Shown piece by piece: positions 3-4,963 of a DNA stretch of 5,527 nucleotides (positions within the stretch are counted from its first letter, which is position 1; each line of letters starts with the position of its first letter). The notes beneath the pieces are model-generated. The model was given only the letters and a program-made list of their open reading frames with translations, was not told the origin of the DNA and did no database searches. Both the position numbers and the translations under genes were made by a program. Origin of the DNA: Candidatus Eiseniibacteriota bacterium (lineage in GTDB: Bacteria > JAFGKV01); the NCBI GenBank assembly GCA_025453925.1, contig JALOPK010000241.1, forward strand, positions 1-5,527. Reading direction: 5' to 3'.

Positions 3-1754
3 ATCATGGTCGCGCCCGGACAGATCCTCCAGCTGGCGGCGGGCACGGAGGGAGTGTTCACTTCCGGCGCGCGCGAGTTCCGCCTCCAGGGCGGCGCCGC
101 GACTCTCCACGCCGCAACCGTAAATGACTCGCTGCGGGTGTGGCTGGCCACGACCACCGGGGAGATCCGCTGTGCGGCTTCCGGCCTTCGGGTGATGGTC
201 AACGGTGTCCAGCGGCATCTGCAGCACGGCGAGGTGATACGGGGAGAGAGCACTGTTGCGTCCGGGGGGAGGTGGCTGCGGCGCGACGGGGAGGACGGCC
301 GCTATCTCCTGGATCTGCTCCAGCAGGGTGAGATACCCTCTCCTGACTATTCATATCGGTTCCCCAGCACACGCCCGGGATTCATTCGCCAAAGCGTCCA
401 GGGCTATGGCGGCGTGGCGACATACCGGGGGAACCGGTACTACCTGGCTGAGTTCACCTATCGCCTGCGCGCCTGGCATCTCCAACTGGCATACGACCTA
501 TGGTTCGCAGTGGATCGCCGAGGGAGGCTTTACTCCAAGGCATGGGACGAGTGGAAGGATCTGGTGGATCATGTGGACCACCTGCAGCTGTTCGTCCCCG
601 GGGATCCCGTGTTTCTCCGCCTGGGTCACATCGACCGGTTGAGCTACGGGCGCGGTCTGCTTCTGGAGAGCTACACGAACGCGGTATTCATTCCCTTCGA
701 ACGAAGGACGGGCCTTCAGGCTCACGTGCGAATGGCTGACCTGACGGTGCGCGGCATGGTCAACGATGTCGCGAGACCTCGCATCATCGGCGGCTCCGCC
801 ACATGGATCATCAACCCGCGATTCGACGCCACACTCACCTATGTCGGCGATGTGGATCAGTACTCAAACATCGCCGATGGGGACGGCGATTCCTACCCCG
901 ATGCCGTTGACCCGCTCCCCGACGTGGCCAACACGCCTCAGGACAGTATCATCCAGGCACTGAGGCCGGTGCGGCTCGACAGCATCCCTCCACAGACTCT
1001 GCACGGCATCGCAGCGTCATTCGACCATGTCGCCGCCAGGGTCACCGATGCCGAACTGCGGCTGGCCGGAGAAGTGGCGTTCCTCAGCAGCATCGGTTCG
1101 GGCATCAGCTTCCCGGAGTTGGTGCTGCGTTACCGCGGCGTCACGGTCGGAGCCGGGCTGGACTTCCAGACTCCGCGCTTTTCGACCTCCATCTTTGATC
1201 GGACCTACGAACTGGACAAGGCACGATTCATTATCCAGCCGGACAGCTCGCTCCTTCTGGTCTCGCGCGGGCACGATCTGCCAGAAACCGATGCGTGGCT
1301 CTACGGGTGGAACAACAGCGTCTCGCTTCAGATCAGCGAAGATCTGATGCTGCGCACTCGTTTTCGCGACGTGACCCGGGGATCCTTCCGCAACAAGCTC
1401 TTCTCCCTGTCGGTCGAAGCGTCGCTGCGCTTTCTGTCGCCGATCACTCGGGCTGGGGCCTTCATCGAGCAGAAGAATGTCTCTCGCCTGCTGCAGGAAC
1501 GGACCGATGGCGAGATCTGGGGCGGCGAGATACGAATGCTTCCCCACGAGTCGACACAGATCAGGGTTCGGTATCGGGAGCGATACGGCGACAGCGATAG
1601 GAGCGCGTCTATCGAGGAAGACGAAGTGGATCGTTCGTTCTCGGCCAGCATGACCATTGATGGAAGCTACTGGTGGGCGCGGTTCCAGGCCTGGCGCGAG
1701 AATCGTAGCAAGCCGTGTGGGAAGCCGACCCATGTGGACGTCGAAGCGAGATAA
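3..1754 (+). CDS. FecR-like / outer-membrane beta-barrel-like protein, 5' partial
   Basis: I do not recognise a named family. The frame is open to the left edge, and the first Met (position 6) is not followed by a signal peptide, so the N-terminus probably lies outside the window. Numbering from that Met (582 residues), residues 1-80 resemble a FecR-type domain: short alternating strands ending in VMVNGVQRHLQHGEVIRGE. From about residue 135 the protein is a run of amphipathic strands rich in Tyr, Arg and Gly (for example FLRLGHIDRLSYGRGLLLES, 203-222), as in outer-membrane barrels. Residues 291-306 form an acidic Asp/Gly/Pro insertion like a thrombospondin type 3 calcium loop. Residues about 135-410 align by eye with the minus-strand gene at 2000-3259, including FxRLG followed by a GRG/GHG-type turn. 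The C-terminus (after residue 569) is basic and lacks the usual terminal aromatic residue, so the end may be altered. Surface or envelope role is inferred. Confidence 0.8.
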   Translation: MMVAPGQILQLAAGTEGVFTSGAREFRLQGGAATLHAATVNDSLRVWLATTTGEIRCAASGLRVMVNGVQRHLQHGEVIRGESTVASGGRWLRRDGEDGRYLLDLLQQGEIPSPDYSYRFPSTRPGFIRQSVQGYGGVATYRGNRYYLAEFTYRLRAWHLQLAYDLWFAVDRRGRLYSKAWDEWKDLVDHVDHLQLFVPGDPVFLRLGHIDRLSYGRGLLLESYTNAVFIPFERRTGLQAHVRMADLTVRGMVNDVARPRIIGGSATWIINPRFDATLTYVGDVDQYSNIADGDGDSYPDAVDPLPDVANTPQDSIIQALRPVRLDSIPPQTLHGIAASFDHVAARVTDAELRLAGEVAFLSSIGSGISFPELVLRYRGVTVGAGLDFQTPRFSTSIFDRTYELDKARFIIQPDSSLLLVSRGHDLPETDAWLYGWNNSVSLQISEDLMLRTRFRDVTRGSFRNKLFSLSVEASLRFLSPITRAGAFIEQKNVSRLLQERTDGEIWGGEIRMLPHESTQIRVRYRERYGDSDRSASIEEDEVDRSFSASMTIDGSYWWARFQAWRENRSKPCGKPTHVDVEAR

Positions 1755-1999: not shown

Positions 2000-3259
2000 T
2001 CAGAACGTGACGCTCAGGGAGATCCGGGGCACGACAACGCTCACGGGACTGTACCCGGCTCCCTGCTTCTCGAAGGTCTGCCGGGATCTGACACAGAGCC
2101 ATGCCCACGGGCGGATCCTGTAGCCGGCGGTGGTCTCCAGGAGGGGCCTGTCCCGGCGGGTGATGTCCCGCAGTTGCCGAATGCGCGCCTTGTTCAGACT
2201 GAGGCGCACCTCCCAGCGCTCACGAATCGGACGGGGGCTCATGTTGACGTGAGGAACGCCGGTCCGGGAGCGACCCTGGACGCGAGAACATCCGGCGGCG
2301 AACGCAACCATGCCCAGCAGAACTCCCTGAACCTCCCCGTACCAGCCTCCGCCACCGGACTCCCCGCCAAGGGCGTCGGCTTTGCCGCTGTCTCCGGCCG
2401 GCACAAACCTGTCGACTCCGTAGAAAGCATCAACGTATTCGGTCATGAAGTCCGGCCCGATGAACCGGCGCTCCAGGCGACACTTCAATCCGGAAACCCC
2501 GGCCAACCTGCCGAAATCACCGCTGAGGCCCATGGCGCCTCCCCAGCCGTGCCCCATGATGGTCGCCAGATCGACGGCGGCGGCGACGCTGACCGCCGAA
2601 TCGAGGGCGAGGGGGATGTCGGCATCGGCGGCGAGAACGGCGATCCCGTCTTCTTTCGCCGTCCGGGAATCGGGATCGAAGTCGGTGACCATGGTCAGGC
2701 CCATTCGGCATGGTGGCAGCGGCCGGCGCAGGCCGGTGAACGGCTCGGCCCAAAGCCTCACGCCGGCAACCTCCCACCTCCCGACGCTGCTCGAGAACGT
2801 CCGGCCTCCGAACCTCGATGTCCGACCGCTGAAGTGGAGCCCGAGACGGCGGAAGTCCTCGTCGTACCAGTTGGTGAAGTGGCGGACGACGAACCCATGC
2901 CCGATCGTCACGTCGTCCGGTGCGCCAAGGCGGGCGAAGACGTTCTCGTCCTCCTCTCCCCACCGCATGTAGCGGATGAAGCGAACCCACTTGTGGGGGT
3001 GGGCCCAATCCTGTTCTCGAAACCCATGTCGTTGCCAGAGAAGTTCCGCATCAAGCCCGACACCCAGCCTGCCCGTTGCCAGCTCACGGCGAAATCTGGC
3101 CGCCCAGAACGGGTCATCATCGATGATGGTTGCTCGAACGTCGCCACCCAGGGTCTACCCCCACACGCACGGCGCAAGGGGCTGGGGGAGAAACACGACT
3201 TGCCAACGAGACAGCCTCGCCATTCCTTTTATCCTGCGGCAGGTTCCGTTCCGCGGCAT
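2000..3259 (-). pseudogene. Outer-membrane beta-barrel-like protein gene interrupted by in-frame TAG at codon 35
   Basis: The gene reads from ATG at 3259 (preceded by GGAGG, spacer 5) to TGA at 2002-2000, 419 codons plus stop, with one internal stop: TAG at 3157-3155, codon 35. An ATG at 2968 would give 322 residues, but the 62 codons between the TAG and that Met are clearly coding: they read GGDVRATIIDDDPFWAARF onward and line up with residues about 135-205 of the protein encoded at 3-1754. Codons 1-34 are basic then moderately hydrophobic (RLSRWQVVFLPQPLAPCVWG), a poor but possible signal peptide, with its cleavage point just where the TAG falls. The product ends ISLSVTF, the terminal Phe expected of an outer-membrane barrel. 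The shared core includes FARLG (108-112) and a GHG turn. A single C-to-T change (CAG to TAG) would explain the stop. Inactivation, readthrough or sequencing error are all possible. Confidence 0.7.
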
Positions 3260-3285
3260 GTGTTCCTCCGGATAGGACGGCGGCA
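3260..3285. promoter_or_regulatory. 26-bp divergent gap with back-to-back ribosome binding sites
   Basis: The start codons of the minus-strand barrel gene (3259) and the plus-strand glycosyltransferase (3286) are only 26 bp apart. The gap holds a strong Shine-Dalgarno for the minus gene (GGAGG, the complement of 3266-3270) and a weaker AGGA for the plus gene (3274-3277, spacer 8). There is no room for two promoters, so each would have to lie within the 5' coding part of the opposite gene. I see no good -35/-10 pair for either. Confidence 0.6.
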
Positions 3286-4461
3286 ATGAAGCCTCGTATT
3301 CCTCACCCCCTCGTCGTCGCGTATGTGTCCGGTCATGGCTTCGGCCATGCGGTGCGCACGTCGGTGATCCTCGGGGAGCTCATGGACCTGATACCCTCCA
3401 CCAGGGTGGTCATCAAGACCACCGCGCCACCATGGATCTTCCGGGCGCTGGGTCGCAGGGCCAGCGTCCTCGCGCAGGAGGTCGACTGCCCGCCGGTCCA
3501 GGCTGATGCGTTCTCCCTGGAGATCGAGGAAACGCTCAGTCGAATGCGGGCGTGGCTTGACCACAAGGAGTGCTGGCTGGAAGTCGAGGCGGCGTGGCTC
3601 CGCGAAAACCGGCCGTCTCTCGTGCTCGCGGATATCAGCCCTCTCGCTCTGGTCGCCGCAAACCGCAGAGGCATCCCCGCAGCGCTGATCGCGAATTTCA
3701 CGTGGGAGTGGATTCTCCGGCGTGCCGAACTCCGCGATCCGCGAACGGTCCCGCTCGCAAACGAATTCGCCGAATGCACGTCGCAGGCAACATGGTGCTT
3801 TCTTACATCGCCCGCCGTCGCGAACGTCGACCATCCCCGCCCAATCACGGTGGGTCTCGTCGGACGCCGCTGCGGCATCGACCGGCAGGAAGTGCGGCGG
3901 CAACTCGGTATCGGCAAAGACACGGTGGCGGTGCTCCTCAGTTTCGGCGGCTTGGATGTCGGATGTGTGGATTTTGCCCCCCTGGCCGACCTGCGCGGGA
4001 TCACCTGGCTGAGCACATCGCCGAGGCCCCAACTGCCGGAGTGCCGGTGCATTCCCCGCGGGTTTGAACACCCGTGTTTGGTGAGCGCGGCGGACGTGGT
4101 GGTCGGGAAGCTAGGGTACTCCACGGTGGCGGAGACGCTCATTCACGGGACCCCCTTCCTTTCTGCCCCACGCATGCACTGGCCGGAGGATGACCTTCTG
4201 CGTGGGGCCCTGGAGTCACGGCTGCCCACTGCCCGGGTACCGTGGGACAGGTTCGTGTCGGGGAGATGGCGAGAGGACCTCCTGGCACTCTGCGGGCGAG
4301 GCCGAGCGGAGGAGCAGCGGCCCTATGGCGGGAGGCAGGTCGCCGTGCTGCTCTCGGCCGCTCTCCTTGACGAGGCATCCGCTGCCGAGGGTCTCTCTGC
4401 CCTCCTCGCCTCGCCGAAGGGCGAACGCCCGACTGATCGTCGTCATCCAGGGCCCGTTTGA
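3286..4461 (+). CDS. Glycosyltransferase-like protein related to the N-terminal domain of L-arabinokinase
   Basis: The 391-residue product looks like a two-domain GT-B protein. Near the N-terminus is VVAYVSGHGFGHAVR (10-24), the glycine-rich loop typical of the glycosyltransferase-like N-terminal domain of L-arabinokinase and of related MurG/UGT-like proteins. Then come LVLADISPLA (112-121) and ANFTWEWIL (136-144), both characteristic of the same group. The second domain starts around VAVLLSFGGLD (214-224) and contains SAADVVVGKLGYSTVAETL (267-285), the usual sugar-nucleotide-binding region. The GHMP kinase domain of full arabinokinases is absent, so this is a stand-alone transferase or sugar-binding protein; donor and acceptor are unknown. 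No signal peptide or membrane segment is seen, so it is probably cytoplasmic. I chose ATG 3286 over an upstream in-frame ATG at 3130, because homology begins at residue 10 from here, AGGA lies 8 bases upstream, and the longer form would overlap the divergent gene. The last 20 or so residues are a charged tail. Confidence 0.85.
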   Translation: MKPRIPHPLVVAYVSGHGFGHAVRTSVILGELMDLIPSTRVVIKTTAPPWIFRALGRRASVLAQEVDCPPVQADAFSLEIEETLSRMRAWLDHKECWLEVEAAWLRENRPSLVLADISPLALVAANRRGIPAALIANFTWEWILRRAELRDPRTVPLANEFAECTSQATWCFLTSPAVANVDHPRPITVGLVGRRCGIDRQEVRRQLGIGKDTVAVLLSFGGLDVGCVDFAPLADLRGITWLSTSPRPQLPECRCIPRGFEHPCLVSAADVVVGKLGYSTVAETLIHGTPFLSAPRMHWPEDDLLRGALESRLPTARVPWDRFVSGRWREDLLALCGRGRAEEQRPYGGRQVAVLLSAALLDEASAAEGLSALLASPKGERPTDRRHPGPV

Positions 4462-4726: not shown

Positions 4727-4963
4727 ATGAACACAGAAGACCGGCGCGCAACGAACGCGCCGGCCAGCAACAACGTGCGGGCGATGAACCCGCTCTTCAT
4801 GGCACGTCGCCTTCAGGAGCTGCGGGCAAAGAAGGAGAAGCTCGCACTGCGTCGGCAGGAACTTGAAGTAGAGATCGAGGACTTGACACTGCAGCGAGAG
4901 TCGCTTAGAATAGCCAACGAGCGTCAAAAAAGACGCATGGCACTCGCGAAGTCGCGGCCCTGA
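4727..4963 (+). CDS. Small charged coiled-coil protein (78 residues)
   Basis: I do not recognise a family. The start ATG is preceded by GAGGGAG (4712-4718, spacer 8); the same frame extends upstream to 4562, but that part has a different, Cys- and Pro-containing composition and no ribosome binding site. The first 20 or so residues are polar and probably disordered. Residues about 24-72 form one long helix rich in Glu, Lys, Arg, Leu and Gln, with leucines and isoleucines at heptad-like spacing (ARRLQELRAKKEKLALRRQE, 26-45, and on through VEIEDLTLQRESLRI, 48-62), as expected for a dimeric or trimeric coiled coil. There is no signal peptide, membrane segment or Cys. The helix resembles those of small scaffold, cell-division or DNA-associated proteins, but nothing identifies the partner. 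The gene stands alone between two gaps and has its own sigma-54-like promoter match. A 5-bp stem with an A6 loop (4921-4936) lies within its last codons. Confidence 0.75.
   Translation: MNTEDRRATNAPASNNVRAMNPLFMARRLQELRAKKEKLALRRQELEVEIEDLTLQRESLRIANERQKRRMALAKSRP

Follow-up and report, generated by a model that had tools for sequence, protein, structure and literature searches.

The window analyzed here is a complete contig of 5.5 kb (5,527 nucleotides), which belongs to a 3.9 Mb MAG composed of 502 contigs and 82% complete. We compared it with one genome of the same genus (G001) and one of the same family (G002), and refer to the present genome as G000 where the three have to be told apart. 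A common gene order is found in all of them: a FecR-like/barrel-like gene on the plus strand, an interrupted gene on the minus strand, and a glycosyltransferase-like gene on the plus strand. The convergent pair formed by the first two is kept in both G001 and G002. Coordinates of all features are collected in Table 1.

Table 1. Features of the locus, with strand and the evidence on which each assignment is based.
Feature	Position	Strand	Evidence or remark
Distant homologue of the interrupted gene, with FecR-like N-terminus and barrel-like part; truncated at the contig start	3..1754	+	Profile match
Interrupted gene, predicted secreted and beta-strand-rich, probable outer-membrane barrel	2000..3259	-	Full-length orthologues
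ORF expected from a gene finder, 322 aa from ATG 2968	2000..2968	-	Without signal peptide and first strands
In-frame TAG	3155..3157	-	Translation; G001 and G002 have either a sense codon or no codon here
Start supported by the orthologues, and weakly hydrophobic signal-peptide region MARLSRWQVVFLPQPLAPCVWG	3158..3223	-	Alignment of AAGGAATG and WQ...LP.LA...W
Shine-Dalgarno-like GGAGG, with ATG 3259 following after five bases	3265..3269	-	Read from the sequence
Glycosyltransferase-like gene, divergent and intact, conserved neighbour	3286..4461	+	TIGR00661

The truncated gene at the contig start has an orthologue in G001 (58.6%). By eye, its N-terminal region appears FecR-like, with no family match. 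Its similarity to the interrupted gene, which the initial annotation had pointed out, was confirmed: the profile built from the three orthologous sequences, the interrupted gene included, matches window positions 393-809 (+), within the truncated gene, with E = 4.1e-9. The glycosyltransferase-like gene matches TIGR00661 (MJ1255/VC2487-like) with E = 4.4e-6, below the cut-off, and occupies the same position in G001 and G002. Further downstream, a small ORF (4727-4963, +) encodes 78 charged, coiled-coil-like residues with only a sub-threshold match to DUF3450. No Rfam match was obtained in the window.

The minus-strand frame from 3259 to 2000 comprises 420 codons including the terminator, and translation confirmed the earlier description of its 419 codons as open but for a single amber codon (3157-3155), which is codon 35 when counted from ATG 3259 and codon 23 from ATG 3223. 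The only other stop is the terminal TGA (2002-2000), which directly follows a Phe codon. Base-shuffled sequences of the same composition averaged 10.6 stops, and none of 300 shuffles had fewer than four; a frame with one internal stop is therefore a gene. The absence of ATG, GTG, and TTG from the 62 codons between the TAG and ATG 2968 was likewise borne out, the only start-like codons there being CTG and ATC. No second copy of the gene was found in this assembly.

Full-length orthologues are present in G001 (45% identity) and G002 (41%), and weaker, more distant homologues from eight further genomes could be aligned as well. In neither orthologue is there a stop at the site of the TAG, which is flanked by coding sequence and a signal peptide; a TAA within the G001 match lies just upstream of the G001 start. 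All homologues that were read extend upstream of Met 2968 by about 60 residues, and where their start is clear, their N-termini are mostly signal-peptide-like. The view that coding selection acted on the codons following the TAG is hence supported by the two related genomes and by the weaker homologues in the eight others. A native start at ATG 2968, the case that would have spoken against this view, was checked and rejected on the same alignments, and a protein starting there does lose the signal peptide and the first strands, as had been proposed.

It had also been suggested that the TAG arose from CAG by a single C-to-T change. The residue aligned with the TAG is Gly in G001, while in G002 the site lies beside a length difference, and the column is not conserved. 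Therefore the codon that preceded the TAG cannot be deduced from the orthologues, and CAG is one possible origin among several.

With respect to the translation start, the choice of ATG 3259 in the initial annotation holds only in part. This codon has the better Shine-Dalgarno sequence, GGAGG, but the orthologues point to ATG 3223 (codon 13), from which they align through a conserved AAGGAATG around the start. Judging from this alignment, ATG 3223 is probably the ancestral start, which would make the TAG codon 23 of the original frame and place it where the signal peptide ends; reading from either start reaches the TAG. About 36 bases separate the strong Shine-Dalgarno sequence from ATG 3223 (region 3223-3270, minus strand). 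A similar GGAGGAGG stands directly before the G001 start, and the extra 36 or so bases before ATG 3223 may have been inserted in this genome.

The interrupted protein matches neither a Pfam family nor a PDB sequence. Read from ATG 3223, it matches the three-sequence profile with E = 1.5e-225, a value to which its own inclusion in the profile contributes. Over part of the profile, the orthologues resemble NF047543 (CytMemPImpL63, Leptospira ImpL63), with E = 1.4e-15 in G002 and 1.4e-7 in G001, whereas the protein of this genome (P0001) reaches only E = 0.038. Membership in the ImpL63 family was rejected, as the score is at most 56.9 bits against a curated cut-off of 1000. In PMC2698987, ImpL63 served as an inner-membrane-associated reference, and thus the NF047543 match by itself gives no support for an outer-membrane location. 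An AlphaFold model computed from three sequences, of very low confidence (pLDDT 31), indicates no more than a strand-rich protein. From the signal peptide, the strand content, and the C-terminal Phe conserved in all three orthologues, we infer a probable outer-membrane barrel.

Beyond the TAG, signs of decay are sparse. Codon usage from codon 98 to the end is typical (0.157, compared with a mean of 0.141 for genes of this genome). When G002 serves as the outgroup, the changes found in G000 alone and in G001 alone stand at 58:41 in the interrupted gene versus 66:56 in the two neighbours pooled, so that no rate acceleration specific to G000 is seen relative to the neighbouring genes (p = 0.59). 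Near-invariant sites are changed in 9 of 38 cases in G000 and in 4 of 36 in G001, a weak excess in the direction of decay that is not significant (p = 0.22). Thus, the TAG itself is the only clear mark of a pseudogene, and either the loss is recent or the consensus is in error. The signal peptide adds a hint: its core has a hydropathy of 1.23, compared with 2.0-3.3 in the homologues, and this poor hydrophobicity would lean towards real decay. A hidden pair of frameshifts around the C and G runs was considered by inspecting the alternative frames by eye, and rejected, as none gave a better signal peptide. The identity of the interrupted gene within the genus (45%) is close to its values between genera (46% and 42%), whereas the neighbouring genes reach 57-58% within the genus. 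This pattern suggests either fast evolution in the genus or a different history of the gene.

Taken together, we consider it probable that the TAG is a nonsense codon in a real gene, i.e., a null allele that arose recently or is limited to the strain sampled. Accepting the TAG base as real in the organism, a gene that once worked and encoded an exported protein, probably an outer-membrane beta-barrel, would have acquired an amber codon where its signal-peptide region ends. Translation would then stop 22-34 residues into the protein. A product made by restarting at 2968 would be devoid of the signal peptide and the first strands, and the protein, and with it the function of the gene, would be lost. 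Nonsense pseudogenes and strain-level null alleles of bacterial genomes likewise have a single premature in-frame stop in an otherwise intact gene, with sense codons in the orthologues, and we found no feature that distinguishes the present case from them.

This reading ranks as the most likely one, and an error in the MAG consensus comes second. Such an error, for which we see a real though clearly minor chance, would mean a sense codon in the organism itself and a wrong base called owing to low coverage or mixed strains. One wrong base would look identical to what is observed; moreover, the 5.5 kb window is a whole contig of a fragmented and incomplete assembly, and the rest of the gene shows normal codon usage and no specific relaxation. 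On the other hand, none of 185 domain matches in this genome (52 ABC-transporter, 73 radical-SAM, 40 response-regulator, and 20 Por-secretion-tail) contains an internal stop, so errors of this kind are infrequent, as far as a rate of interrupted genes resting on four families indicates. The unusually poor signal peptide, too, speaks against a mere base-calling error. A search by codon usage for further interrupted genes lacked the power to inform, since even the gene studied here scores near zero around the TAG.

If the amber codon were read through, in a programmed or leaky way, to yield a little full-length protein, the intact frame that follows it would be accounted for. We regard such readthrough as very improbable, since the TAG is conserved neither in the same-genus nor in the same-family orthologue, no suppressor tRNA was found, and RF1 is present. 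Slightly less credence still is due to a real TAG allele held at balanced frequency, by which the population would switch a surface protein off, perhaps with low-level readthrough.

Amber-recoded bacterial and phage genomes are known, and an in-frame TAG is what the present case has in common with them. They differ in that TAG regularly terminates genes here: across 247 kb of the genome, the 157 long ORFs end in TGA (103), TAG (41), or TAA (13). RF1 is intact, and a CUA anticodon is absent from the 38 typed tRNAs (39 matches, one of them at a contig edge and untyped; genome 82% complete). The search for in-frame TAG codons elsewhere in conserved genes, recommended by the initial annotation, is covered by the domain matches described above, all free of internal stops. 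Given this terminator use, RF1, the tRNAs, and the domain scans, a change of the genetic code, which would rely on one in-frame TAG in one gene, was rejected as next to impossible, and the suppressor tRNA that had been envisaged finds no support. TAG is an ordinary stop in this genome, the sole reservation being the missing 18%. On amber recoding, the genome thus adds a clear negative case from a lineage related to Candidatus Fermentibacteria.

Phase variation, also proposed earlier, has no basis and can practically be dismissed: the runs of G and C near the TAG are short, the frame does not change across the TAG, so that tract slippage would neither make nor remove it, and no invertible or repeated element is seen there.

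The interruption is thus best read as an ordinary nonsense codon that involves no new biological mechanism. It nevertheless calls for caution in annotation, as the genome would list a 322-residue protein without a signal peptide, whose start is shown to be wrong by the orthologues.
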